A DNA stretch of 64,000 nucleotides from the NCBI RefSeq assembly GCF_033954835.1, contig NZ_CP121471.1, positions 2,102,501-2,166,500 of the forward strand. Reading direction: 5' to 3'. The notes under the pieces were generated by a model that made no database searches, had not been told where the DNA came from, and was given only the letters and a program-made list of their open reading frames with translations. The translations under genes were made by a program, and so were the position numbers. This DNA is from Thiorhodovibrio frisius (GTDB taxonomy: Bacteria > Pseudomonadota > Gammaproteobacteria > Chromatiales > Chromatiaceae). Shown here piece after piece: positions 5,102 through 18,522 of the stretch; within the stretch, counting starts at the first letter, position 1; each line of letters opens with the position of its first letter.

Positions 5102-5528
5102 GCGCATCGGTATCCCAATTGCAAACTCGTTTTCGATTGTGGGCTGGGTGACGGACGCTTAAGACGCTTAAGTTTAGAAAGCAAGCAATGGACGCTGCCG
5201 TGTATTTCGAGACCATTGTCGGCGGATTTCGCGCGTAGTCTAGGTATTCTTACGCATAGGCATTTCTGCCAAGACCGCCTAGAGTCTTTCCGGGTTGCGT
5301 CGTGTCGCGGGCTGAAGTTCCATTACGAAGGCTCCAAATCCTAACGCTCATGGTCCCGATCACCCTGGATAATGAATCCCTGTGATTCACATGAGGGTTC
5401 CAGTCCTTCCTACTCCATTCAGACTTCAGCCTGAGTGCGTCGCTTCATCCTTTCGATCCTTTATTGATTCGGCCTCCCACCGGCTTCCCAGCGGAGGCGA
5501 ATTCCCTACGATCCAAAAGGTAATGCTT
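5102..5528. other. Intergenic region with dispersed repeat copy
   Basis: 427 bases between mgtE and the arylsulfatase. Positions 5108-5155 match, with changes, one arm of the large palindrome at 27.2-27.4 kb (GGTAT-CCCAATTGCAAACT followed by a CTGGGTGACGG segment). A direct repeat GACGCTTAA occurs at about 5154-5172. The rest probably holds the sulfatase promoter and leader, but I see no convincing -35/-10 pair or operator. Confidence 0.45.
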
Positions 5529-7358
5529 ATGTCTGTTGATCCATACCACAATGGCGGGCCGATGCTCGCAAAACCCGATGCTTTGCGCCATCGACTGACG
5601 GCCCCGCTTGCCGTCGCCCTGACCTTAAACTTTGCGCTGCCCTACGCGGCGGCGGCCCCGGATGCAGAATCCGCCAACCCGCGCGGCGCAACCACAGGCC
5701 CAACCTCGGCCAAGGGGTATGACTTTCCTGGGCATTTCATTCATCTCAAGGCCGAGAAGCCGGCCGACAACATGTATCCGGTCATCGCCCATCCGGAGCA
5801 AGAGAACGCCGCGCGCGAGAAGCTCGCCGAATTGGAGAAGAAAACCGGCAAGAAGCCCAATGTGCTGATCTTCCTGCTCGACGACGTGGGCTGGATGGAT
5901 CCCGGCTTCAACGGCGGTGGCGTGGCCGTCGGTAATGCCACGCCCAACATGGATGAGCTGGCGCAAGACGGGTTGCTGCTGACCTCGGCCTACTCGACGC
6001 CGTCCTGCTCACCGAGTCGCGCGACCATTCACACCGGTCAGAATCCGCTGCATCACGGCATCCTGCGCCCGCCGATGTATGGCGAGCCGGGCGGCCTTGA
6101 CGGTGCCATCACCTTGCCCAAGCTGCTCAAGAAACACGGCTATGTCACCCAGGGCGTTGGCAAGTGGCACATGGGTGAGAACAAGGGCTCGTTGCCACAG
6201 AATGTCGGCTATGACGACTATGTCGGCTTTCTGGGCGTCTCGGATATGTATACCGAATGGCGCGATCTCTATTTTAACCCCGAGGTCGCTCTCTCGCCGG
6301 CGCGCTTCAAGATGATGCAGGAGGATGGCTTTGACCACCACGAGGTCCATTGCACCGCCGATGACACCGAGCAATGCAAGGACGGCAAGCTGATCGACCT
6401 CGACTACATCAAAGACCTTGACACCCACTGGAAGGACGTCAGCCTAGCCTTTCTCGACAAAATGAAGGACAGCGACGAGCCGTTCTTCCTCTATCACGCC
6501 ACCCGTGGTTGCCATTTCGACAACTATCCGCCCGATGAATACCTGGGCAAATCGGCCGCGCATACCGTCTATAGTGATTGCATCGTGCAGATGGATGATA
6601 TCTTCGGGGCCTTGGTCGACAAGCTTGAAGAAACCGGCCAGCTTGAGAACACCTTGATCCTGCTCACCTCCGACAATGGGCCGGAATGTGAAATCCCGCC
6701 GCATGGTCGCACCCCATTCCGCGGCTGTAAGGGGTCGAGCTGGGAAGGCGGTGTGCGCGTGCCGACCTTCGCCTATTGGAAAGGCATGATCCCGTCACGT
6801 CGCTCCGATGGCCTGTTCGACTTTGCCGATATTCTGCCCACCGTGATGTCAATGACCGGCGTTTCCGGGGCCGACCTGGCTGGAGAGTTCTCCGACGTTA
6901 CCTACATCGACGGCGTCGATCAGCTGCCCTTCCTGCTGGCCGATGATGGTCTGTCAAGCCGGCGCAGTCGTCCCTACACCATCAACCAGTACTTCGGTGG
7001 CATTCGGATCGATGAGTTCAAATTGGTCTGGACCGGGGAGATTGAGAACGGGGTGGTGCAAAAAGGCGATTTTGGCGGCTTCAGCGGTTCGGTCTTCACC
7101 GAAAGTGGCGGCGCTATTATGTTTAATCTCTACACTAACCCACAGGAAGACGTGAGCATCGGTGTTCGCCATATTCCAATGTACGTTCCGCTCGAGGGAG
7201 CGGCTGGCGCCTATATGGCCGACCTGATGAAGTATCCGCCGCAGTTCAAGATCGGCTTTATCAGCAACAACCCGCCGATGTATGACCTTGCGCCGAAAGA
7301 GCAAAAGGCCGTGCAGAAGATGCTTGATGAGCGAGGTATGGGGCGTCCAACCCCCTGA
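5529..7358 (+). CDS. Exported arylsulfatase (type I, formylglycine-dependent)
   Basis: 609 residues from the ATG at 5529, which has AAAGG 8 bases upstream; the frame opens earlier at 5382 but without such a site. A signal peptide follows (hydrophobic run APLAVALTLNFALPYAAAA). NVLIFLLDDVGWMDPG supplies metal ligands, and SCSPSRATIHTG carries the CxPSR motif in which the Cys (residue 160) is converted to formylglycine. GVGKWHMG and TSDNGPE complete the active site. It should hydrolyse sulfate esters in the periplasm. Activity needs a formylglycine-generating enzyme, not found in this window. A terminator follows, so the phosphatase downstream is separately transcribed. Confidence 0.9.
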   Translation: MSVDPYHNGGPMLAKPDALRHRLTAPLAVALTLNFALPYAAAAPDAESANPRGATTGPTSAKGYDFPGHFIHLKAEKPADNMYPVIAHPEQENAAREKLAELEKKTGKKPNVLIFLLDDVGWMDPGFNGGGVAVGNATPNMDELAQDGLLLTSAYSTPSCSPSRATIHTGQNPLHHGILRPPMYGEPGGLDGAITLPKLLKKHGYVTQGVGKWHMGENKGSLPQNVGYDDYVGFLGVSDMYTEWRDLYFNPEVALSPARFKMMQEDGFDHHEVHCTADDTEQCKDGKLIDLDYIKDLDTHWKDVSLAFLDKMKDSDEPFFLYHATRGCHFDNYPPDEYLGKSAAHTVYSDCIVQMDDIFGALVDKLEETGQLENTLILLTSDNGPECEIPPHGRTPFRGCKGSSWEGGVRVPTFAYWKGMIPSRRSDGLFDFADILPTVMSMTGVSGADLAGEFSDVTYIDGVDQLPFLLADDGLSSRRSRPYTINQYFGGIRIDEFKLVWTGEIENGVVQKGDFGGFSGSVFTESGGAIMFNLYTNPQEDVSIGVRHIPMYVPLEGAAGAYMADLMKYPPQFKIGFISNNPPMYDLAPKEQKAVQKMLDERGMGRPTP

Positions 7359-7377
7359 TCCGCGTGTTTTGAACTGT

Positions 7378-7449
7378 CCCGGCGCATGACGCCGGGCAAC
7401 CCATGACGCATGATCCTGGTCATCCCGGATCATGCGTCTTTATGTTTTG
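7378..7449 (+). terminator. Double-hairpin rho-independent terminator
   Basis: A first hairpin CCCGGCG/CGCCGGG (7378-7396) is followed by a perfect 12-bp stem, GACGCATGATCC at 7405-7416 paired with GGATCATGCGTC at 7427-7438, and then TTTATGTTTT. It lies 20 bases after the arylsulfatase stop. Confidence 0.85.
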
Positions 7450-7619
7450 CGCGAAGTTTGCTAGAAGCTATTTCGCTCCATCGAACACTGTGCATGCGGC
7501 TAAGCCGCTTGGCTGTGCCTTGCATGCTTTCTCTATACAGCAGTACCTGATCGGCTTTCCCTGCGGGCGCACCAGAAGTGCCCGCAACATCTGCGACCCT
7601 AACCAAAGGTGATACCCAA

Positions 7620-8663
7620 ATGCATACCAAAATCAAAGGTAACCGCAAGCCGCTGAGCCTGTTGTGGCCTGCGGCGCTGGTGCTTGCTGGCCTCGGCGCG
7701 ACCGGCGCGCTCTTTGCCGCAGACACTGACCCACTAGCGTCTTGGACGACTGGTGACAGCAAACAGGCGATCATCGAGTTTGTGGACAAGGTCACCACGC
7801 CAGGCTCGCCCGACTTCGTGCCGCCTGAGGACCGCATTGCCACCTTCGACAACGACGGCACACTCTGGCCGTCGCACCCCATTTACACCCAGCTCGCCTT
7901 TGCCCTGGACCGGGTGAAGGCGCTGGCTCCCCAGCACCCGGAGTGGAAGACGACAGAGCCCTTCAAGTCGGTGCTTGCCAACGATCTGGCCGGCATTGCG
8001 GCGAGCGGAGAAAAGGGCATTCTTGAGCTGGTCATGGCGACCCATGCCGGCATGAGCACGGCCGAGTTTGAACAGATCGTGACCGACTGGTTCAAGACCG
8101 CCAAGCATCCGAAGTTCGACCGGCGCTACACCGAGCTAGCCTACCAGCCGATGCTCGAACTGCTCGACTACCTGCGCGACAATGGCTTCACCACCTACAT
8201 CGTCTCCGGCGGCGGCATCGAGTTCATGCGGCCGATGACCATGGAGGTCTACGGCATACCCGCACAGCAGGTGATCGGTTCATCGATCAAGACCGAGTAC
8301 AAGGTGGTCGACGGCAAGCCCGAGCTGATACGTAAACCCGAGGTGAACTTCATCGACGACAAAACGGGCAAGCCGGTCGGCATCAATCAGTTCATCGGCA
8401 AGCGTCCCATCGCCGCCTTCGGCAATTCCGATGGCGACCGGCAGATGCTCGAATGGACTGGCGCAGGCGCGGGCGCGCGCTTGATGATGCTGGTTTTCCA
8501 CGACGACGCGAAGCGCGAATACGCCTACGGCCCCGCCGAGGGGCTGCCCGACACCAAGTTCGGCACCTTCAGCCAGGACCTGATGGACGAGGCCAAGGCT
8601 AAGGGCTGGTCCGTGATCAGCATAAAGGACGATTGGAAGCGCATCTTCGCTCCTGATCAATGA
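7620..8663 (+). CDS. Exported HAD-superfamily phosphatase
   Basis: 347 residues from the ATG at 7620, preceded by AAAGGTGA at good spacing; the upstream in-frame start at 7578 lacks one. The N-terminus is a signal peptide (basic start, then LLWPAALVLAGLGATGALFA). Motif I is IATFDNDGTLWP (DxDGT, catalytic Asp), motif II is YIVSGGGIEFMRP, and motif IV is AAFGNSDGDRQMLEW. This matches the exported HAD-IB-like phosphoserine-phosphatase relatives. The substrate is unknown; the neighbouring exported sulfatase suggests scavenging of phosphate or sulfate esters, but that is inference. Confidence 0.85.
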   Translation: MHTKIKGNRKPLSLLWPAALVLAGLGATGALFAADTDPLASWTTGDSKQAIIEFVDKVTTPGSPDFVPPEDRIATFDNDGTLWPSHPIYTQLAFALDRVKALAPQHPEWKTTEPFKSVLANDLAGIAASGEKGILELVMATHAGMSTAEFEQIVTDWFKTAKHPKFDRRYTELAYQPMLELLDYLRDNGFTTYIVSGGGIEFMRPMTMEVYGIPAQQVIGSSIKTEYKVVDGKPELIRKPEVNFIDDKTGKPVGINQFIGKRPIAAFGNSDGDRQMLEWTGAGAGARLMMLVFHDDAKREYAYGPAEGLPDTKFGTFSQDLMDEAKAKGWSVISIKDDWKRIFAPDQ

Positions 8664-8702
8664 GCGCCAGGACGCAACCCGCTGACGAGCGATCCAACAA
8701 TT

Positions 8703-8727
8703 GACCAATTTCCGATTGGTATAAACA
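8703..8727. repeat. Short palindrome related to dispersed element
   Basis: ACCAAT-TTCCG-ATTGGT followed by ATAAAC, just before the gene at 8731. The core resembles TTTGCGATTGGTATA in the elements at 27.38 and 55.87 kb. It could be an operator or a small fragment of that repeat family. Confidence 0.35.
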
Positions 8728-8730
8728 GAG

Positions 8731-9525
8731 ATGACCTCCTTTTTTTATCAAATTCCGATTTGGGGCGTGGTTCTGCTGTTTTTCGTCCTCGTGATGATCG
8801 CGATCGAGATCGGTTATCGCGCCGGGCATCGCACCAAGGAATTTTGGGAGAGCGCGGAGGCCGGTGGGGGCAATGTCGTTCTCTCGTCGATGTTGCTGCT
8901 GCTTGGGCTGATCCTGGCGCTGACCTTCTCAGCCAGTGTGGGCAATCACCAGTCCCGGCAGAAGGCCGTGATCACTGACGCGAATGCGATCGGCAAGGTG
9001 TTTCTGCTGGCCGATCTGGTCGCCAAACCTGAGGATCAGAAATTAAAGAAGGCGCTGCTTGAGTACGCGCGCACTCAGGTCATTACGAGAAGTGACGCAC
9101 TCAGTTCCCAAAAGCTCCAGGATTTGATCCAGGAGTCGACGCGCGCGGCAGCCGCGATCTGGCAGCTTACCGAAGAGATTGTGCAAGAGAAGGAGGCTGG
9201 TGCGTTCGATGTGTCTCTCGGCTTGGCGGTGACGGATCTTTTTGGTTCGCACCGCCTGCGCAATTGGAATGTTTTTTACCGACTACCGGGCATTGTGCTC
9301 GCCATTTTGGTGATCATCGCCACAGCTTCTCTGGCAATCGGCGGCTTTAACGCCGGCATTTCAGGGAGAATCAGCCGTTCGCGGATGACGGCTCTCGCCC
9401 TGGTTCTGTCCGGTGTCATGCTGCTGCTTGTGGATATTGACCACCCAGTGTCCGGCTTTATCCAGGTGGACCAGGAGGTTATCCAGACGCTCATTGACCA
9501 AATACAGCAGGACCTTGGGCAGTAG
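8731..9525 (+). CDS. DUF4239/bestrophin-like membrane protein
   Basis: 264 residues with two membrane helices near the N-terminus (about 9-29 and 50-70) and two near the C-terminus (about 192-212 and 220-240), separated by a soluble helical part. The first pair with GHRTKEFWESAE and LTFSASVGNHQSRQKAVITDANAIG is the pattern of the DUF4239 bestrophin-like family, for which no function is established. The start ATG has only a weak AGAG upstream. It faces the convergent response-regulator gene with 8 bases between stops. Confidence 0.6.
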   Translation: MTSFFYQIPIWGVVLLFFVLVMIAIEIGYRAGHRTKEFWESAEAGGGNVVLSSMLLLLGLILALTFSASVGNHQSRQKAVITDANAIGKVFLLADLVAKPEDQKLKKALLEYARTQVITRSDALSSQKLQDLIQESTRAAAAIWQLTEEIVQEKEAGAFDVSLGLAVTDLFGSHRLRNWNVFYRLPGIVLAILVIIATASLAIGGFNAGISGRISRSRMTALALVLSGVMLLLVDIDHPVSGFIQVDQEVIQTLIDQIQQDLGQ

Positions 9526-9533
9526 CTGCTGTT

Positions 9534-10175
9534 TTACGCTAAGGGTTCGCTTTGAGCCGCAGCGTCTTTCGGTGGTACAAAAAGGGACAGTAACGCCTTG
9601 GTCGAACGGACCTTGAACTTGCGCAGCACACTACGTCGATGCGCTTCACCCGTGCGCGGGCTGATGCCAAGCGCCAGGGCAATCTCTTTGGTCGATTTAC
9701 CGGCCAGCAGATGATCAAAGACTTCACGCTCTCGCGCAGTTAGCGTATTGGAGCACTGATCGATATGGTCCTGGGTCTCCCGCGAGTTCTTGCGGCGGCC
9801 GTCAACGGCTAGCGCGGCCTGGATGCTGTCAAGCAGTGCCTGCTCGCGGTAGGGCTTCTGGACGAAATCGATGGCGCCGGCTTTCATGGCAGCGACGGCC
9901 ATGGGCACATCACCGTGGCTGGTTAACAGGATCACCGGCAGGGGTGAACCCTGCGCCTGGAGTCGCTGAAGTAGCGTCAAGCCGCTCATCTCGGGCATGC
10001 GCACGTCAAGCACCAGACAGCAGGGGGGCTGGGGCGCATAGGCGACGAGAAAGGACGGCCCGGAGGGATAGAGTTCGGCCCGCATCCCGACCGACTCCAC
10101 CAACTCGGCGATCGAGTCCCGCATCGCGGCATCGTCATCGACCACGTAGACTGTCGGGATTGTGTTGTTATTCAT
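9534..10175 (-). CDS. FixJ-type two-component response regulator
   Basis: 213 residues. The receiver domain (about 8-120) has VYVVDDDAAMRD, the phosphoacceptor Asp57 in LVLDVRMPEMSG, Thr in LLTSHGD and Lys in FVQKPY. A LuxR-type helix-turn-helix follows (about 145-205; LTAREREVFDHLLAGKSTKEIALALGIS). It is a DNA-binding regulator whose start overlaps the stop of the histidine kinase by 4 bases (ATGA), so that kinase is very likely its partner. It is the last gene of the four-gene signalling operon. Its targets are unknown. Confidence 0.9.
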   Translation of the reverse strand: MNNNTIPTVYVVDDDAAMRDSIAELVESVGMRAELYPSGPSFLVAYAPQPPCCLVLDVRMPEMSGLTLLQRLQAQGSPLPVILLTSHGDVPMAVAAMKAGAIDFVQKPYREQALLDSIQAALAVDGRRKNSRETQDHIDQCSNTLTAREREVFDHLLAGKSTKEIALALGISPRTGEAHRRSVLRKFKVRSTKALLSLFVPPKDAAAQSEPLA

Positions 10176-12226
10176 CTCGCAGTTGCTCGCAGTGTAAAGC
10201 GAAAGATCGCACCGCCGGTCGGGTTCGGCTCGTGCCAGATCTTGCCGCCGTGAGCCTCGACGATGGTTCGGGCGATTGATAGCCCCATGCCCATACCACC
10301 GCGCTTCTCTGAGTAAAAGTGTTCAAAGATGTCGCCGACGCGCTCCGGCGGCACGCCCGGCCCATGATCCGTCACGCTCACCTCGACTTGATCCTTGCCT
10401 GCGTAGCCTAGGTCAACCGAGACCTCTTTATCGGCTCCAGTGTCAGTGTCATCAGCCAGGCTCTGGGTGGCGTTTTGTATCAGGTTGACCAGTACGAGCT
10501 GCACCTGCAAGGGATCGGCGAGCACCGTCGGCGCCTCGCCGGTCAGGCTACAACGGATGTGGCAGCTGCGGCTTTCAATCTCGGGCTCGATCATCCGGAT
10601 TACCGCTTCGAGCAGCGGATAGAGGGGAACAGGCTCTAGCTGCGGCTCGCCGCTGCTCACCAAGGAGCGGACCCGCTGCGTGATGCTACCGGCGCGTTCC
10701 GCTTGTCCTTCGATCTTCCCGAGTAACTCAATGCTCTTTGCCTTACTCTCGCGATCGCCCTGCAATCTGCGCTTGGTCGCCTGCGCATAGTTCAGGATGG
10801 CGGTAATTGGCTGATCGATTTCGTGAACAATCGCCGCAGCCATGGTGCCGAGGCCGCGCTCCTTGCTGACGCGGGCCAGTCGGCCTCGCAACTGCGCTGC
10901 GAGGCTCTCGGCTGTTTTGCGTCGTTTGCATTCTGCCTCCAGCCCCGCTTGCGTTTTGCGCAGCCGCCGCTGGTTTCGCATCAGTGCCAGGATCCATCCA
11001 GCCTGGGCCAGGATCACGCCCAGCACCAGGAGAATCTGCTGACGGTACTGATCCCAGACCCCAAGTTCACGAAACCGAATCTCGCAGCCTTCGGGCAGCA
11101 GGTCCGGGTCGATGTCCCAACGGCGCAATTGCCGCCAGTCGGCCATACAGCTTGGCGCCACCGGCGGTTGTATGCCGATTGCCGCCGGGTCTTCCCCATT
11201 GAGCACCCGAGCAACCATTTGGCCGGTTTTTCGCCCCTGCACGCCGAAGCTGGCAATCGAGCCGGCGAGAATACCGTGCCCCAGGTAGGTCTCGAAGACC
11301 CCGAAGATGGGTACCGGAGAGACCTTGCTGAGCCGCTCCAGCATCACGCGGGGTACCTGAGGTTGGCCGTCAAGATCGCGATAGATCGCCAGATAGAGCA
11401 CGATGGCATCGGGAGGCAGCGCTTCAACGGCGGCAAGGGTTTCGGCCGTACTCAGGCCAATGATCAATTGCGTGTCGACCCGCGCCTCCAGGCGCTTGAT
11501 TGCCGCGCGCGCAGGTGCCAGAAACTCGCAGCAAGCGCGAGGGATGTCGCCGACGATGGCAATCGTTTGTGTTTGCGGCCTGAGTCGCAGCGCAAGATCG
11601 AGCGTTTCCACGAACTCGAGACGGTGCGGAAGGCCGATGACATCGGGCGCAAGGTTGCGTTCATCGAGCAACTTGGGCGAAATGATATTGAACACGATGT
11701 CTGCACCGGGCCAGGTCTCATCGCGATAGCGCAGAGCGAAGTCAAGCGCAACCGGCGCGATGGTGACGACCACATCGATCTTCAGGTCGTGGTATTTCCG
11801 TTTCAGCAGCCTGGCGATATCCTTTTCGAGCAGCGCGTGCGGAAAACGGTGCATATCCAGCGTCTCACCGTATAGCTCGACAGGGCTTGCGCTGTTTGAC
11901 ACGATCGCCGCCCGCAGGGCGCGCTCAAACACCTGGAAGGCGGGCAGGTAGGGATCGGTTGCATTGAGAATGACAACGCGCTGAGGTGTCTCGGAGCCAT
12001 CCGAGTCAGTCGCCAGCGCGGCGTTCGGCGCAAGCAAGACGGCGACCAGGATGACGCATCCCGTGATGGTAGCGATCCTGAGCCAGGAATGCGCCTCGTC
12101 AAAGCGGCGCAGTGCGACCTCGGCAAGGAAATAAAGGAGTGCAGTTCGAGCCACAATTGCCTGTTGGCGTTCTTCTTGAAAGACCGGTTGGTTGCATTCA
12201 GACACTTCCGTCTTCAAGACGGGCAT
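10172..12226 (-). CDS. Histidine kinase with ABC-type periplasmic substrate-binding sensor domain
   Basis: 684 residues. An N-terminal helix (about 45-70) is followed by a periplasmic ABC_sub_bind-type domain (about 80-360; RVVILNATDPYLPAFQVFERALR, AIVGDIPR), a second membrane helix (about 385-408), a coiled coil, a HisKA region with phospho-His about 468 in VHEIDQPITAILNYA, and a HATPase domain (N box LIQNATQSL, DHGPGVP, GMGMGLSIAR). It presumably senses a small solute and phosphorylates the FixJ-type regulator with which it overlaps. It starts 15 bases after the diguanylate cyclase stop, so all four genes probably share a transcript. There is no strong ribosome-binding site. Confidence 0.88.
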   Translation of the reverse strand: MPVLKTEVSECNQPVFQEERQQAIVARTALLYFLAEVALRRFDEAHSWLRIATITGCVILVAVLLAPNAALATDSDGSETPQRVVILNATDPYLPAFQVFERALRAAIVSNSASPVELYGETLDMHRFPHALLEKDIARLLKRKYHDLKIDVVVTIAPVALDFALRYRDETWPGADIVFNIISPKLLDERNLAPDVIGLPHRLEFVETLDLALRLRPQTQTIAIVGDIPRACCEFLAPARAAIKRLEARVDTQLIIGLSTAETLAAVEALPPDAIVLYLAIYRDLDGQPQVPRVMLERLSKVSPVPIFGVFETYLGHGILAGSIASFGVQGRKTGQMVARVLNGEDPAAIGIQPPVAPSCMADWRQLRRWDIDPDLLPEGCEIRFRELGVWDQYRQQILLVLGVILAQAGWILALMRNQRRLRKTQAGLEAECKRRKTAESLAAQLRGRLARVSKERGLGTMAAAIVHEIDQPITAILNYAQATKRRLQGDRESKAKSIELLGKIEGQAERAGSITQRVRSLVSSGEPQLEPVPLYPLLEAVIRMIEPEIESRSCHIRCSLTGEAPTVLADPLQVQLVLVNLIQNATQSLADDTDTGADKEVSVDLGYAGKDQVEVSVTDHGPGVPPERVGDIFEHFYSEKRGGMGMGLSIARTIVEAHGGKIWHEPNPTGGAIFRFTLRATAR

Positions 12227-12241
12227 TGGCCAGCGCCACGA

Positions 12242-13165
12242 CTAATTTGCGGTGACGACTACGCAATTGCGGCCGGCTTTCTTGGCCGCATAGAGCGCTT
12301 GGTCGCTGCGAGCCAGCAATAGATTTGCATTGTCGCCGTCCTGCAAAATTGCCAGGCCGATGCTCACGGTAACCCGATGCGGTTCACCGAGCGGGCGTAG
12401 CTTCGCCGTTGCGATGCGAGTCCGCTCGGCGACCTTCCGCCCCTTCTCGACGTTAGTGTTCGGCAACATGAGCACGAATTCCTCGCCGCCCAGGCGCCCG
12501 GACAGATCACCGGCGCGACTGCCCTCGCGCAGCAAATCGGCGAAAGCTTTGAGCACCGCGTCGCCGCCGGCGTGTCCGAACCGATCATTGATCTGTTTGA
12601 AGTGGTCCAAATCCATCATCAGCAATGCGACGGGCTGGCCTTGCCTTTGCGCGCTCAGCAGGGTCAGGTCCAGGCGCTCCAGAAAGCAGCGGCGGTTCGC
12701 CAAGCCGGTCAAGCCGTCGGTGTGGGCGAGTTCCATGACGCGACGGTTCGCATGACGCAATTCTCGCACCAAGTTCGCCATTTCGGTGGTCATACGCGAG
12801 AGGCTCTGCGTGGCCTGGGATTCGTCCGGGCTGGTCACGGAACCAATGAGGAGTGCGTGCTGATCGGGTAACGGGTAGGCGTACATCAGAATGTCCTGAT
12901 CCGTCCAAGAGTTCAGCACATAGGGCACGGGTGTGCCGTTCGGAAGCCCTGGGACGATCTCTGGCCGCTCGTTTCCGTTGTTACGCAGAAATTCGCTGAG
13001 CGCCTTTCCCCGTGCCTCGCCGGTGGGTCGCAAGGCGATAGTGAAGCCGTTGTTGTGATCGACGATCAGCCCATCCGCATCCAACTCGACCATGATCAGG
13101 TAACCGGATGCAAGGGCGAAATCGAACAGCGCGGCTTGAAACTCAGGCGTCTCGGTGTAGGACAT
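12242..13165 (-). CDS. PAS-GGDEF diguanylate cyclase with inhibitory site
   Basis: 307 residues from the ATG at 13165 (a GTG at 13174 is possible). The N-terminal 100 residues look like a PAS sensor (GYLIMVELDADGLIVDHNNGF). After a short coiled linker comes the GGDEF domain with HTDGLTGLANRR, DLDHFKQINDRFGHAGGD and the active site GGEEF. An RxxD inhibitory site (RAGD) lies exactly five residues before GGEEF. It should make cyclic di-GMP and be product-inhibited. The start lies inside the end of the B12-binding gene (23-base overlap), so the two proteins are translationally coupled and probably act together. Confidence 0.9.
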   Translation of the reverse strand: MSYTETPEFQAALFDFALASGYLIMVELDADGLIVDHNNGFTIALRPTGEARGKALSEFLRNNGNERPEIVPGLPNGTPVPYVLNSWTDQDILMYAYPLPDQHALLIGSVTSPDESQATQSLSRMTTEMANLVRELRHANRRVMELAHTDGLTGLANRRCFLERLDLTLLSAQRQGQPVALLMMDLDHFKQINDRFGHAGGDAVLKAFADLLREGSRAGDLSGRLGGEEFVLMLPNTNVEKGRKVAERTRIATAKLRPLGEPHRVTVSIGLAILQDGDNANLLLARSDQALYAAKKAGRNCVVVTAN

Positions 13166-14291
13166 CGTTCGCACTGGGGAGACAATGGGCGCGCGCCCAG
13201 GTAACGGCGTCCAGACAATTGTGCAGACAGGCGTCGGCGCCGATGTCCGTTCCGAGCGAGCTCAGGAACTGGAACACCTGGCCACCTACCACGACCTTGG
13301 TCGCCGGTAGATGCGAGCGCAACGCCGCAACCGCTGCCCGGGCGGCACGCAGATTGAATGGCATAGAGATGGACAGCGCGACCAAATCGGGCCGCTGATC
13401 TAATGCCTTGTGCAACAGGACATCGTTTGGAACATTGGCGCCAAGATAGATCACGTCCCAACCATCCAACTCCAGACAGGTGGCCACCATCCAGGCGCCC
13501 AGCTCATGGAACTCGTTCACGCTGGCGGCGACCAGCGCGCGGCCCCGCACCGGCTCGGGGAACGCCTGCTCGTAGTACAGCGAGGACAGTACCCGGTTGA
13601 TGATCGCGGTGGCCTGGTGCTCGCCCGTGATCGAGAGCTTGCCATCTTCCCAGAGCAGGCCGACCAGATTCATCGCTGGCACCACCAGGCCCTGCAGCAG
13701 GGTCGGTAGAGCCATACCGGCGTCCCGCAACTCGCGGCACAACTGGAGCAGGCGTTCATCGTCGGCCTCAAGCAGGGCTTCGGTGAATGCAGCGAAGGCA
13801 TCGGCTAGACTTGAATCGACGGTGAGTGACGTCTTGGCGCGCTGTTCGGCCAGTTCAATAACCTGCTGGTGCTGCGCCAGCATCCAGTCGTATACGCGGA
13901 TGATCTCCGCAGCAGGCTCTGCCGGCAGCGCTGCGACTATGGCTTCCTTCCAAAGGCCAAGTTCGATGGCGAAATAGTCGTAGTGGACGCCCTGCGCATG
14001 GTAGGCGTGATAGACCCAGGGCAGGGTCACCGCGAGCAAGTCGTATTGCGCGCTCTGGAACACCTCGTCCATAAACTGGGCGTGATATCGATGGTTGTCC
14101 GCGAACAGCGTCGGCGGGTTGCCGCCGATCAGTTCCGGGTAACGCGAATGGGCTGCAATACGGTCCGTAACTTCCGCCGCCAACAACTGCATAACCGATT
14201 GGTAGGCCTGCACGGCCACGGCGGACACTGCGGGCAGGCTGGCGGCGCCCTGTGCGATCAGGTCAGAGCGCTGTGCGGCATTGCGCGTCAT
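13143..14291 (-). CDS. B12-binding protein with CarH/AerR-type Wx9EH light-sensor motif
   Basis: 382 residues, start supported by AGAGG 8 bases upstream. Residues about 1-150 form a helical region I cannot assign (Trp/His-rich LPWVYHAYHAQGVHYDYF). Residues about 160-245 are a B12-binding four-helix cap, and about 250-370 the Rossmann B12 domain. In the cap, Trp214 is followed after nine residues by Glu224-His225 (Wx9EH), the signature of adenosylcobalamin photoreceptors such as CarH and of AerR. The Rossmann part has ExHxxG (Glu260, His262, Gly265), the lower-ligand motif. No DNA-binding domain is present. Overlap with the cyclase gene suggests light- or B12-dependent control of c-di-GMP (inference). 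Confidence 0.8.
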   Translation of the reverse strand: MTRNAAQRSDLIAQGAASLPAVSAVAVQAYQSVMQLLAAEVTDRIAAHSRYPELIGGNPPTLFADNHRYHAQFMDEVFQSAQYDLLAVTLPWVYHAYHAQGVHYDYFAIELGLWKEAIVAALPAEPAAEIIRVYDWMLAQHQQVIELAEQRAKTSLTVDSSLADAFAAFTEALLEADDERLLQLCRELRDAGMALPTLLQGLVVPAMNLVGLLWEDGKLSITGEHQATAIINRVLSSLYYEQAFPEPVRGRALVAASVNEFHELGAWMVATCLELDGWDVIYLGANVPNDVLLHKALDQRPDLVALSISMPFNLRAARAAVAALRSHLPATKVVVGGQVFQFLSSLGTDIGADACLHNCLDAVTWARAHCLPSANDVLHRDA

Positions 14292-14434: not shown

Positions 14435-14650
14435 TCAGGTTGACACCTTGCACATCACCTCAACGCTGCTCATGTCCGGCATGTGCAGGTCGAAAAAGAT
14501 CGGATCGGGCCGTTGCGCCCGCACCCGCGCGATGCCCTCGGTGCCTTTGGCTGCGAGCACGAGATTTTAGTCCATCAGACGGCTCAGCGCGAGAACGAAG
14601 GCATCGCGAATACCTTCTTTGTCGTCCCCGTCTCGCACCCGGTCTTGCAG
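14435..14650 (-). pseudogene. Decayed response-regulator receiver fragment
   Basis: Read on the minus strand, one frame gives a helical stretch ending SRLMD, an in-frame TAA, then LVLAAKGTEGIARVRAQ, PDPIFFDLHMPDMS and a stop. The last part is the core of a receiver domain (beta-3 strand with phosphoacceptor Asp, then the MPDM turn). There is no start, no C-terminal half, and stops on both sides. It is likely the remains of a regulator or hybrid kinase that once headed the signalling operon. Confidence 0.6.
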
Positions 14651-14711: not shown

Positions 14712-14884
14712 GATATCACCCTTGATGTATTGCCTTTTTCTATTTAGGCATGCCCTTTGCTTTAGATTGCCCTGCCAGAGGTGTTTCGGCTCCTCTGGGG
14801 TGGGTGTCGCGTGCGGTCGATGAAATGACTGCCGGCGGCGCTGACGCGACATCGGTATTCAGGGCTCTATTGGAGGGCTTGCGC

Positions 14885-16075
14885 ATGACTAGGACTCCGC
14901 CCGAGATTATTCCGCCGAGCATCGCACCCGGTGCGGTCTGCATCAACGACACGACGCTGCGCGATGGCGAACAATCTGCCGGGGTGGCCTTTTCGCTGGA
15001 CGAAAAGCTTGCCATTGCGCGCGGGCTCGACGCCCTTGGCGTGCCGGAGTTGGAAATCGGCATTCCGGCGATGGGCGAGGAGGAACGCGCATCCATCGCT
15101 GCGGTCGCGGCCTTGGGACTGAATGCGCGCCTAATGGTCTGGGCGCGCATGGTCGAGCAGGATATTGCCGCCAGTCGTGACCTACCGGTGGATCTAATCG
15201 ACCTGTCGATTCCGGTGTCCGATCAGCAAATTTCCGGGAAGCTCGGGCGTGATCGCACCTGGGTGCTCAAACAGATTCGCATCCAGGTGCCACGGGCACT
15301 GGAGGCGGGCTTTCAGGTTGGCGTTGGCTTTGAGGACGCCTCGCGCGCTGATGCGGATTTTCTGCGCCAGGTCGTGGAGGTGGCACAAGCCTCGGGCGCT
15401 AGGCGCGTGCGCTATGCCGACACCCTTGGGGTGTTGGACCCCTTCGGCGTGTTTGCCGCCATCAGCGATCTGCGCGCCCATTGTGACTGCGAGATTGAAA
15501 TGCACGCCCATGACGACCTCGGCATGGCCACGGCCAATACTCTGGCGGCGGTGCGCGGCGGGGCCACTCATGTGAATACCACGGTGCACGGGCTGGGGGA
15601 ACGCGCTGGTAATGCGGCACTCGAAGAGGTGGCAATTGGCCTGAAGCACGTCCATGGTTGCGCAACTGGCATTGATCTCACCCATTTCGAGAGTCTGTCC
15701 GAGTTGGTTGCAACCGCATCGGGCCGGCCAGTGGCCTGGCAGAAGAGCCTGATCGGCGCCGGGGCTTTTACCCACGAGGCTGGCATCCACGTCGATGGAC
15801 TGATGAAAGATCCGCGCAATTATCAGGGTGTCGATCCGGCCGAGCTTGGCCGCACTCACCGCTTGGTGCTGGGCAAGCATTCCGGCCGCCATGCCCTGTG
15901 TCGCGCCTATGCCGAGCAGCTCAATACCTCACTGAGTGCTGAGCAGGCTGCCTGTCTGCTCACGCGTGTGCGCAGCTTCGTGACCGAGCACAAGCGCTCG
16001 CCTGAGCTGGGTGATCTGCGCGGTTTCCTCTCGGAGATTGATCTTAGCGCCGGCGGTAGTCTGCGCTTGCAATAG
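14885..16075 (+). CDS. nifV: Homocitrate synthase NifV
   Basis: 396 residues from the ATG at 14885, with GGAGG 8 bases upstream; the frame opens at 14750 but that part has no family match. [18 protein letters not shown] is the metal/2-oxoglutarate site of the isopropylmalate/homocitrate synthase family, and [22 protein letters not shown] carries the His ligands. It condenses acetyl-CoA with 2-oxoglutarate to homocitrate, the organic ligand of the nitrogenase FeMo cofactor. It leads a nif maturation operon, which separates it from leuA-type homologues. Confidence 0.92.
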
Positions 16076-16110
16076 CCAGCAACCATCGCCAAGCAATTTG
16101 TGGGATAGCA

Positions 16111-16665
16111 TTGGATTTACTCGACTTCACCGGCCAGGAGATGTACTTCGACGCCCCGCTGCCGGCGGAGGTGGACGCGCTCATACAGGATGCTGCGAGC
16201 GACTATGGAAGCGAAGGCGGCGCGAGCGCTGAGTTGGCTTTGCTGCGGGCTTACTTTCTGGCGCCCGAGCAGCTATCGGTGCTGGTCGCGCTCTATCGCT
16301 ACTATTACTATCAGCACCGGCTGGAGGATGCGCTGATTGTGGCCGAGCGTGCGCTGGCGCTGAGTGCCCGCGACCTGGGATTGGACGGCGGCTGGCGGGA
16401 ACTCGATGAGGCCCGGCTGCATGAATTAAGCCAGCATGCCATGCCCTTGACCCGCTTTCTGCTGCTGGCGCTCAAAGGCGCTGGCTATCTGGAGTTGCGT
16501 TTGGAGCGCGCCACCGAGGCGCTCGAACGTCTTGAGACCCTTGCGCGGCTCGATACCGAGGGGCGTCTGGGCATCGACAGCCTGCTGCGCCTGGCGCGCA
16601 GTCTGGTGACCGAGCAACAGATTCAGGGTGCTGGGGATAACCTGCATGTTTTGCGGCGTCGCTGA
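16111..16665 (+). CDS. TPR-like helical protein of nif operon
   Basis: 184 residues, start at TTG 16111 (GTGGGA upstream); an ATG at 16141 has AGGAG directly against it and is less likely. Entirely helical, with two TPR-like units (LALLRAYFLAPEQLSVLVALYRYYYYQHRLEDALIVAERALALS and GAGYLELRLERATEALERLETLARLD). I do not recognise a named gene. Its place between nifV and nifW, with short gaps, suggests a scaffolding role in nitrogenase maturation. There is no signal peptide, so it is cytoplasmic. Confidence 0.65.
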   Translation: MDLLDFTGQEMYFDAPLPAEVDALIQDAASDYGSEGGASAELALLRAYFLAPEQLSVLVALYRYYYYQHRLEDALIVAERALALSARDLGLDGGWRELDEARLHELSQHAMPLTRFLLLALKGAGYLELRLERATEALERLETLARLDTEGRLGIDSLLRLARSLVTEQQIQGAGDNLHVLRRR

Positions 16666-16752
16666 CGCAAAATTTGGCGAATGAATTCGCCTGACCGACG
16701 CGGCGAATCTATTCGCCATTAGGCCTTGACCATCAACTAAAAGGTGCCTGCC

Positions 16753-17100
16753 ATGTCCGATGTAACACAGACGATCGAGGAACTGGACCTCGATGAACTC
16801 GAAAGTGCCGAAGATTTCCTGACCTACTTCGGTATTGCTTTTGACCCTGCCGTGGTTCATGTGAACCGTTTGCACATTTTGCAACGCTTTCATGATTATC
16901 TCGCCGAGGTCGAGACCTTGCCAGAGGATGCCCAGGCACAGTTTGAGTTACACCGGGATCTGCTCGAAGGCGCCTATGGAGATTTTGTGAATTCGGATGC
17001 GCGCACCGAGAAAGTCTTTCGCGTCTTTAAGCAAGGGCAGCCGGTGAACGTGGGGTTGGATTCGCTGCTTGGTCAGTTGCATCATGCGCCCAGCGTATGA
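16753..17100 (+). CDS. nifW: Nitrogenase-stabilising protein NifW
   Basis: 115 residues from the ATG at 16753 (AAAAGG 8 bases upstream; a GTG at 16744 is less likely). ELESAEDFLTYFGIAFDPAVVHVNRLHILQRFHDYL and FKQGQPVNVGL are typical of NifW, a small acidic protein that protects the MoFe protein from oxygen or aids its maturation. It overlaps nifZ by 17 bases. Confidence 0.9.
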   Translation: MSDVTQTIEELDLDELESAEDFLTYFGIAFDPAVVHVNRLHILQRFHDYLAEVETLPEDAQAQFELHRDLLEGAYGDFVNSDARTEKVFRVFKQGQPVNVGLDSLLGQLHHAPSV

Positions 17101-17590
17101 CTACGGCGATGAGGTGCGCGTTATCCGCCACCTGCGCAACGACGGGACATTTCCCGGTCGGGATCGCGGTGCGCTGCTGATTCGTCGCGGCAGCACGGGC
17201 TATGTGCGCGATGTTGGGACCTTTTTGCAGGACCAGATCATCTACAGCGTGCATTTTGTCGACCAGGATCTCGTCGTTGGCTGTCGCGAGCAGGAATTGC
17301 AGGCGGCAAGTGACTTTTGGGTCGAAAGTCGCTTCGATACCCGCGACCGGGTGCGCGCCACCCTGACCCTGGCCAGCGGCGGTCGCTTGCTGGTGGAGGA
17401 GGGCAGCATCGGGGAAGTGGTCAAGGTCCTACGCGGCGAGCGCGAACTGCTTGGCTACCATGTCCAGTTTCCTGGCGCCAATCTGCTACAGGTGCCAGAG
17501 TCCGCGCTTGAAGCCACTGAATGGGTGCAAGAGCCAGCGGCGAATGATCAGGCGAGCGCGCCCTCAGCACCGTCGGAGCCAGGCGCATGA
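17084..17590 (+). CDS. nifZ: Nitrogenase maturation protein NifZ
   Basis: 168 residues, start at the ATG at 17084 inside the end of nifW. YDYGDEVRVIRHLRNDGTFPGRDRGALLIRRGSTGYVRDVGTFLQDQIIYSVHF is the conserved NifZ N-terminal core, a small beta-barrel needed for formation of the second P-cluster of the MoFe protein. A related motif pattern recurs at about residues 85-140 (TRDRVRATLTL to GYHVQFPGANLLQVPES), so the protein looks like two copies of the barrel. The end overlaps nifM (ATGA). Confidence 0.88.
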   Translation: MRPAYDYGDEVRVIRHLRNDGTFPGRDRGALLIRRGSTGYVRDVGTFLQDQIIYSVHFVDQDLVVGCREQELQAASDFWVESRFDTRDRVRATLTLASGGRLLVEEGSIGEVVKVLRGERELLGYHVQFPGANLLQVPESALEATEWVQEPAANDQASAPSAPSEPGA

Positions 17591-18522
17591 CCAATCGTAT
17601 GACCAATGGTATGAATGGTACCGCGCGAGCGTCCCAACAGAGCGCAGGCTTAGCAGCGAATGCTCAACACGACTCGCAACCAGCGGAATACCGCTACCAC
17701 TTGCTGCGTGCGGCGGCGGACAAATTTTCCTGCGGACTTGCCGCCTTAGCCGATGACCAATGGCCGCAGGTCGAGGCGCGCGCGAGGCAGAGCTTTTGCC
17801 TCGAGAACCTGGTGCTGAATGCACCGGAAGCTCAGGCTGTCTGCATCCCGGAGGACCAGATCGAACAGGCACTGGTGGAGGTGCGCTCGCGCTACGCCGA
17901 CGAAGCGCAATTTCGCGACGAACTGGCGCTAAATGGGCTTGATCTGGCAGCGCTGCGCCGTGCCCTCCAACGCGAGCTAACCTTCGATGCCGTCATCCGT
18001 ACCGTCGGCGCCCGTCATGCGCCGGTGACCGAAGCCGACGAGCAACTCTTCTACGAACTCCATGCCAAGCGCTTTCGCCAGCCGGAGACCCGCAGCGCCC
18101 GCCATCTGCTGATCACAGTCAACGAGGAATTCGCCGAGAATTCCCGCGCCACCGCCCGTGCGCGCCTGGAGGCTTTGGCTGAACAGATCAAACCCGGCGA
18201 TGCTGCTACCTTCGGCGAGCTTGCGCGCAACCACTCGGAGTGTCCGAGCGCACTGCAAGATGGCCAACTCGGCACACTGACCAGCGGCCAACTTTACCCG
18301 GCGCTGGATAACGCGCTCTTTGAAATGGTCGAAGGCGCTATCAGCGAAGTGCTCGAATCCCCGCTCGGCTTCCACCTGCTCTACTGCGAAGCCATCAGTC
18401 CTGCCAAAACCGTCCCCTTCGAGCAGGCACGCGAGCGCATCCGCCAAGCGCTCACCGAGCGCCGCCAAGGCGAAATGCAAAAAGCCTGGATAGCAGAATT
18501 GCGCGCGCAGACGGGCAAATAA
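17587..18522 (+). CDS. nifM: NifM, PpiC-type peptidyl-prolyl isomerase
   Basis: 311 residues. The N-terminal helical part (about 35-165) resembles the SurA-type chaperone domain; the C-terminal parvulin domain (about 170-285) has TRSARHLLITVNEEFAENS, FGELARNHSECPSALQDGQLGTLTSGQL and SPLGFHLLYCE. NifM is needed for correct folding of the nitrogenase Fe protein NifH. The first residues are a threefold Met-Thr-Asn-like repeat, so translation could begin at any of three ATGs. There is no signal peptide, which argues against a periplasmic isomerase. Confidence 0.9.
   Translation: MTNRMTNGMNGTARASQQSAGLAANAQHDSQPAEYRYHLLRAAADKFSCGLAALADDQWPQVEARARQSFCLENLVLNAPEAQAVCIPEDQIEQALVEVRSRYADEAQFRDELALNGLDLAALRRALQRELTFDAVIRTVGARHAPVTEADEQLFYELHAKRFRQPETRSARHLLITVNEEFAENSRATARARLEALAEQIKPGDAATFGELARNHSECPSALQDGQLGTLTSGQLYPALDNALFEMVEGAISEVLESPLGFHLLYCEAISPAKTVPFEQARERIRQALTERRQGEMQKAWIAELRAQTGK

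Follow-up and report, generated by a model that had tools for sequence, protein, structure and literature searches.

Two overlapping minus-strand genes in a 64,000-nucleotide stretch of the Thiorhodovibrio frisius genome (contig NZ_CP121471.1, positions 2,102,501 to 2,166,500; the whole stretch is called the window hereafter) encode a putative cobalamin (B12) sensor protein and a partner diguanylate cyclase (DGC), and the same two genes recur side by side in other bacteria. The conserved unit consists of these two genes and not of the row of four genes in which they stand. The sequences and models suggest that the pair is a two-gene, trans-acting relative of the photocobilin-DGC proteins, in which the B12 sensor would switch a cyclase through a PAS adaptor whose output module is exchangeable; we put the probability of this reading at roughly 0.6. 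A link between B12 photoreceptors and cyclases is already known; what the literature searched, which left out the 2022 photoglobin paper, did not show is the division into two genes, the PAS adaptor and the exchangeable output.

Conservation of the sensor-partner gene pair

Genome contigs were scanned with the sensor aligned to four relatives, by the patterns [EQ][FL]HE[LIM]GAW and [TS]CLELDGW, and 33 loci were obtained. The choice of the patterns partly selects for conservation near residues 260-267 and 271-278 of the sensor, and Trp214 and Glu224-His225 lie outside them. A partner gene stands directly downstream of the sensor gene in 31 of the 33 loci, coding for a PAS-GGDEF protein in 16 and for a protein ended by a CxxC module in 15. 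The PAS-GGDEF partners belong to the purple sulfur bacteria (Chromatiaceae and Ectothiorhodospira, 14/14) and to two Desulfuromonadaceae. Conserved co-occurrence of the two genes had been proposed as a check by an earlier reading of the window made from its letters only (the sequence-only reading), and the recurrence of the pair in all 14 loci that the scan gave for purple sulfur bacteria indicates that the pairing is not due to chance. The CxxC-ended partners, of 204-264 residues where intact, have the same N-terminal PAS domain and coiled coil, and their frame is broken in two loci (L066 and L073). The PAS domain was seen by phmmer in 14 of the 16 DGC partners; its assignment in L069 and L074 comes from the alignment, in L069 also from a profile match. 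From the stop codon of the sensor to the first PAS strand there are 46-120 nucleotides in all 28 pairs measured.

Open reading frames (ORFs) were also clustered around 17 DGC loci, namely that of the window, the 14 purple loci and the two of Desulfuromonadaceae, and the widespread families were those of the sensor and the partner. The minor clusters are two, one made up of four frames antisense to the pair and the other a family seen in 3 loci, and with this imperfect ORF filter no third gene family besides antisense frames was found at more than 3 of the 17 loci. At some loci the filter kept longer or antisense frames instead, at the cost of the sensor in L051 and L060 and of the partner in L050, L053, L054, and L059; all of these genes are seen when the loci are analysed separately. 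The record titles of the family loci cover about nine phyla and include many metagenome-assembled genomes (MAGs), and no relatives were found in viral contigs.

Domains and motifs of the sensor

The sequence-only reading had seen in the 382-residue sensor the Trp214, Glu224-His225 and E260-F-H262-E-L-G265 motifs of adenosylcobalamin photoreceptors without a DNA-binding domain, and it is borne out on each point: the residues are in place, and Pfam gives B12-binding_2 and B12-binding domains and none that binds DNA. The AlphaFold model (predicted local distance difference test, pLDDT, 93.8; predicted template modelling score, pTM, 0.89) shows an all-helical N-terminal domain (N-domain) ahead of the B12 half. 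The best match of the B12 half among the Protein Data Bank (PDB) sequences is the photocobilin SasPcob (8j2x, E 1.3e-22), and AbDPcob (8j2y) is matched at E 7.6e-12. In the best 50 Foldseek matches of the sensor, which are filled by its B12 half, the folds of CtMerR, photocobilin, and CarH are found, with SasPcob, at 33% identity, among the best of the matches listed. The CarH model TransRegCarH reaches 52.6 of 400 bits, over the B12 region only, and there is no MerR-type DNA-binding match in Pfam.

Trp214, Glu224, His225, and His262 are unchanged in 32/32 aligned sensors; this alignment holds the window and 31 of the 33 loci, with L079 trimmed at the N-terminus and with L078 and L081, which are in two pieces or short, excluded. 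In SasPcob the equivalent Trp61, Glu71-His72, and His108 hold adenosylcobalamin. The light-responsive cobalamin-binding signature of SignatureFinder consists of GxxW, EH, GxxH, and GxxxP elements (PMC11796333). The first is present as GLLW at 211-214 (G211 and W214 in 32/32) and the second as E224-H225, nine residues past Trp214 (32/32); GxxxP is present in the window as G284-ANV-P288, with Gly284 in 27/32 and Pro288 in 24/32 sensors.

Among 37 N-domains, at most one is matched by any given family of Pfam (best E 0.022) or NCBIfam (best E 0.034), and no relative was found among the PDB sequences, in which only a designed protein was matched (E 0.084). Its profile gives a weak match, at 35% probability and P 4e-4, to the CxxD-type N-domains of other B12 proteins. 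The N-domain also begins multi-PAS histidine kinases of relatives in which Pfam finds no B12 domain (L047:4275-6626 and L048:6273-8642).

The partner protein and exchange of its output module

The GGDEF domain of the 307-residue partner scores 160.2 bits in Pfam and carries GGEEF with RAGD five residues ahead, in agreement with the cyclase with an RxxD I-site that had been read from the letters; GGEE[FL] and RxxD are kept in 17/17 DGC partners. The PAS domain that had been assigned to the same protein goes unrecognised by Pfam, in which the first 110 residues match no family, but the AlphaFold model (pLDDT 89.8, pTM 0.58) shows a PAS-like order of strands and helices followed by a coiled coil. 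In a related partner, L064, Pfam PAS matches lie under the cut-off. In the PDB, the fold most like that of the partner is found in a PAS-GGDEF-EAL protein, the best 50 matches being driven by the GGDEF domain. A GTG at 13174 could serve as an alternative start of the gene.

When the N-terminal halves of the two partner types are compared as profiles, with 11 sequences on each side (11/17 DGC and 11/15 CxxC), they match at 99.3% (E 7.1e-21), and the Desulfuromonas partner gives a match at 95.4% (E 1.9e-8); these values strengthen the view that the PAS domain is common to both partner types. The alignment of partners comprises 16/16 DGC and 11/15 CxxC sequences with that of the window, L062, L066, L071, and L073 being excluded. 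On the sensor tree of 32 rows, the DGC partners need 2 changes, compared to a mean of 10.9 under shuffling, and only 1 of 500 shuffles is as low; the strongly supported branches alone force one partner change. The output module has therefore been exchanged at least once.

The CxxC module, at the C-terminus of the partners in L064-L082 (for example L082:9104-9745 and L068:9095-9739), reads PICxxCKxIRDDxGYWxxxExYIxxHSxAxFSHGxCxxC. Its CxxC...CxxC is kept in 11/11 aligned partners, nothing in Pfam was above cut-off for the three partners tested, and no paper on its core string was found in the literature searched.

An operon elsewhere in the T. frisius genome (L007:5497-7873, at 604-617 kb) consists of three genes with 4-base overlaps, which code for a B12 protein, a histidine kinase with a PAS-like N-terminus, and an N-domain that stands alone. 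Over 128 columns, the N-terminal region of this kinase gives a match to the mixed partner profile at 95.6% (E 1.1e-8). Against the DGC-only profile it matches at 85.7% over 52 columns only, mainly the coiled coil, which weakens the link a little. The operon probably represents this design in split form, with a histidine kinase as the output of the PAS protein. Cyclases beside other B12 proteins give weaker N-terminal matches (L045, 88.8%, E 2.5e-6; L049, 73.4%, E 3e-5).

Proposed mechanism and comparison with known systems

The sensor and partner genes overlap and are probably translationally coupled. We infer that the ligand of the sensor is a corrinoid, most likely adenosylcobalamin, held in a pocket of the CarH type by Trp214, Glu224-His225, and the lower ligand His262. 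The sensor would be changed when the upper ligand is lost or photolysed, with light as the presumed input. The changed sensor would act in trans, presumably by direct contact, on the PAS domain and coiled coil of the partner, by which the diguanylate cyclase could be switched and the level of cyclic di-GMP (c-di-GMP) set. The PAS protein would be a dedicated adaptor, with GGDEF as its output here and CxxC...CxxC in other phyla; in L007 the output is probably a histidine kinase.

Two proteins here would do what AbDPcob, a photocobilin-diguanylate cyclase fusion (Nat Commun 2024; PDB 8j2y), does as one. As reported in PMC10979010, light raises the cyclase turnover of AbDPcob more than 10-fold, and in vitro photocobilins also act in trans, altering the activity of a DGC domain that is separate from them. 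AbDPcob and the pair both couple a B12 domain with a Trp...Glu-His adenosyl pocket to a GGDEF cyclase; however, AbDPcob is a single polypeptide in the order DGC-B12-bilin domain, whereas here there are two overlapping genes, a helical domain before B12, and PAS before GGDEF. The stand-alone photocobilin SasPcob (PDB 8j2w/8j2x), the best sequence match, is reported there to alter a separate DGC in trans. It holds biliverdin in a C-terminal globin via Asp270, whereas the sensor has its additional domain at the N-terminus, with Asn66 in place of the aspartate in the weak alignment. No described system with this gene order was known to the sequence-only reading, and the order was not found in the literature searched either; the claim is narrowed by the published fusion of a B12 photoreceptor and a DGC (PMC10979010).

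Other known systems share single features with the pair. The B12 fold and the adenosyl-pocket motifs of the sensor are those of the light-dependent MerR regulators CarH/LitR and CtMerR; these bind DNA, whereas the sensor lacks a DNA-binding domain and would work via a separate PAS protein. The top NCBIfam model for the partner is SiaD, with a score under the cut-off. To our knowledge, SiaC, its counterpart in the SiaC-SiaD system of Pseudomonas aeruginosa, is not a cobalamin protein. The structure 7e6g of that system matches the partner fold, and its title calls SiaC a cyclase activator. Operons of photoactive yellow protein (PYP) with GGDEF/EAL genes, deduced from genome context (PMC12826048), likewise combine a photoreceptor with a separate gene for a c-di-GMP enzyme, but with another chromophore and another protein family. 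In the BBAG-2/photoglobin clusters (PNAS 2023, PMC10151467), globin-like and B12 proteins are encoded together; CXQD or RGMC motifs and bilin enzymes are reported for these clusters and are not seen in the sensor family.

Alternative readings of the locus

Several observations weigh against a light-driven two-gene switch. Two Desulfamplus loci of the 33 have no partner downstream, and the distribution of the pair is patchy. When 112 genomes of relatives were searched, that of T. frisius included, full-length sensors were found in 4 of the 111 others, at 41-60% identity, and in neither of two congeners; each of the four also carries an overlapping PAS-GGDEF gene. Many members of the family come from MAGs of largely anaerobic, non-phototrophic lineages. 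In the light signature, the GxxH lower-ligand element is absent and is replaced by N259-E-F-H262, with His in 32/32 sensors and the -3 position occupied by Gly in 1, Asn in 29, and Asp in 2, and GxxxP is missing from 9/14 purple relatives. The function of NxxH may survive, because in CtMerR the contact of the Gly runs via its main-chain carbonyl. Of the adenosyltransferases that could supply adenosylcobalamin, neither of the two families looked for, PF02572 (CobA/CobO type) and PF01923 (PduO type), was found in the T. frisius genome, in which CobS is present; the genome may possibly hold a missed or unrecognised one. A CobA-type enzyme is found in 17/33 family genomes. In a search of 38 genomes, PF02572 was found in 10 and was absent from both congeners. 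Finally, without biliverdin, dark SasPcob activated the cyclase in vitro and light appeared inhibitory (PMC10979010), so the sign of the sensor effect cannot be predicted here.

The spread of the family over such lineages, the incomplete light signature, and heme oxygenase (PF01126), the source of biliverdin, in 11/33 family genomes could all be accommodated if the sensor read corrinoid status or redox and set c-di-GMP by the supply or oxidation state of adenosylcobalamin. We regard this as rather unlikely, since 32/32 sensors have an unchanged Wx9EH, which marks the adenosyl pocket of photoactive B12 proteins, the gammaproteobacterial carriers in the scan are all named Chromatiaceae or Ectothiorhodospira, which are phototrophs, and the nearest DGC fusion is light-activated (PMC10979010). 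A full photocobilin, in which the N-domain would bind biliverdin and confer sensitivity to red light as in SasPcob, appears improbable. The N-domain is indeed all-helical, with a weak likeness to CxxD-type N-domains, and the T. frisius genome has one heme oxygenase match, but its three PHY-domain matches could account for that enzyme; by weak alignment, the CxxD cysteine and aspartate correspond to F63 and N66 and the RGMC-like site to QGVH, and PF01126 is without a match in 22/33 family genomes.

The sequence-only reading had instead taken all four minus-strand genes as one system, in which light and a solute signal may be joined through the kinase and regulator to control c-di-GMP, the solute presumably being periplasmic. 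The genes are adjacent, a gap of only 15 bases separates genes 2 and 3, and a simple scan finds no terminator-like site between them, and the four may be co-transcribed in this strain; the size of the gap depends on a putative kinase start, and relatives of the 684-residue kinase align only from residues 37-81. Against this stands the tblastn search of the kinase, regulator, HAD-phosphatase, sulfatase, and bestrophin-like proteins, which gave no match at E<=1e-12 in the 14 purple sensor stretches, extending up to 8 kb on each side of the sensor where the contig permits. Kinase orthologues, at 39-57% identity, are found in four genomes without a full-length sensor (G002, G006, G011, and G025), and the kinase lies near homologues of the HAD-phosphatase and/or sulfatase in 4/5 other loci. 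In two genomes carrying the sensor pair, G020 and G033, there are only kinase-domain matches, with one weak (29%) sensor-domain match in G020; the kinase search covered 62 genomes, G045 and G050 being outside it. By the criterion that the sequence-only reading had set, adjacency of the four genes in this strain only, these results refute the four-gene set but not the pairing of genes 1 and 2. The four-gene system is therefore rejected as very improbable, and from the gene contexts we judge the kinase/regulator pair to be a neighbour of the sensor-cyclase unit and not a part of it. What stands of the original interpretation is the CarH-like B12 domain conserved beside an I-site cyclase, and what finds no support is the joining of light and solute via the two-component pair.

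Layout of the locus and neighbouring genes

The four minus-strand genes, which overlap by 23 and by 4 bases and have one gap of 15, had been placed correctly by the sequence-only reading (Table 1). Of the third, it had said that it is a histidine kinase with an ABC-type binding domain; Pfam gives HisKA and HATPase_c, but the binding domain stays under the cut-off (16.3 vs 25.9 bits). The fourth, taken as a FixJ-type regulator, has Response_reg and GerE domains in Pfam, but neither FixL (168.3 of 850 bits) nor FixJ (205.8 of 255 bits) reaches its NCBIfam cut-off.

Table 1. Features of the sensor-partner locus and its neighbours in the window
Feature	Position	Strand	Basis or remark
Sensor gene (gene 1), 382 aa: helical N-terminal domain, B12 helical cap, B12 Rossmann domain	13143..14291	-	Pfam, AlphaFold
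N-terminal all-helical, possibly globin-like domain, residues 5-153	13833..14279	-	Alignment, AlphaFold
B12-binding_2 cap, residues 168-238, with GLLW, Trp214, Glu224-His225	13578..13790	-	Pfam
B12-binding Rossmann domain, residues 251-355, with NEFHELG (His262) and GANVP	13227..13541	-	Pfam
Overlap of 23 bases between sensor and partner genes	13143..13165	-	ORF coordinates
Partner gene (gene 2), 307 aa: PAS-like domain, coiled coil, GGEEF diguanylate cyclase with RxxD I-site	12242..13165	-	
Histidine kinase (gene 3), 684 aa, putative periplasmic sensor region	10172..12226	-	HisKA and HATPase_c; judged a separate module
FixJ-type response regulator (gene 4), 213 aa	9534..10175	-	Response_reg and GerE; paired with the kinase and likewise judged separate
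Sulfatase (5382-7358), HAD-phosphatase (7578-8663), bestrophin-like (8731-9525)	5382..9525	+	Pfam (Sulfatase 197.7 bits)

The plus-strand genes at 5382-9525 converge on the kinase/regulator pair. HAD homologues near the kinase are found in L112 (own-genome paralogues), L114, and L116 at 51-83% identity and in partial form in L115, and sulfatase homologues in L112, L115, and L116 at 29-91% identity; the fifth locus, L117, is a 5.8-kb contig with neither. In L116, from a congener (G002:C1:3839000-3857000), the kinase orthologue is split, some 7.5 kb separating its two pieces, and an IstB_IS21 gene and an AAA gene lie between them. Other kinases or receivers lie near a few purple sensor loci, such as L054.

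Upstream of the sensor gene, at 14480-14600 on the minus strand, a short frame ending in RPDPIFFDLHMPDMSSVEVMCKV before its stop codon resembles, by eye, a decayed receiver domain. Divergent beside the sensor gene, at 14750-18522, are nifV, nifW, nifZ, and a rotamase gene at the place of nifM, a name inferred from this position. A link with nitrogen fixation was considered and rejected, as nif genes are not among the neighbours common to at least 3 of the 17 DGC loci.

Implications for c-di-GMP signalling

For the family as a whole, we tentatively suggest a bacteria-wide class of split B12 receptors, bilin-free, in which a helical-plus-cobalamin sensor would act in trans on a PAS adaptor with DGC, histidine kinase, or CxxC outputs, and which in anaerobes would perhaps read the state of adenosylcobalamin and not light. 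The in vitro switching of a separate cyclase by photocobilins would gain a natural counterpart in a conserved gene pair, with which one can ask directly whether purple sulfur bacteria set their c-di-GMP level via cobalamin. The PAS adaptor with exchangeable outputs, if true, would make the pair a modular two-protein B12 switch.

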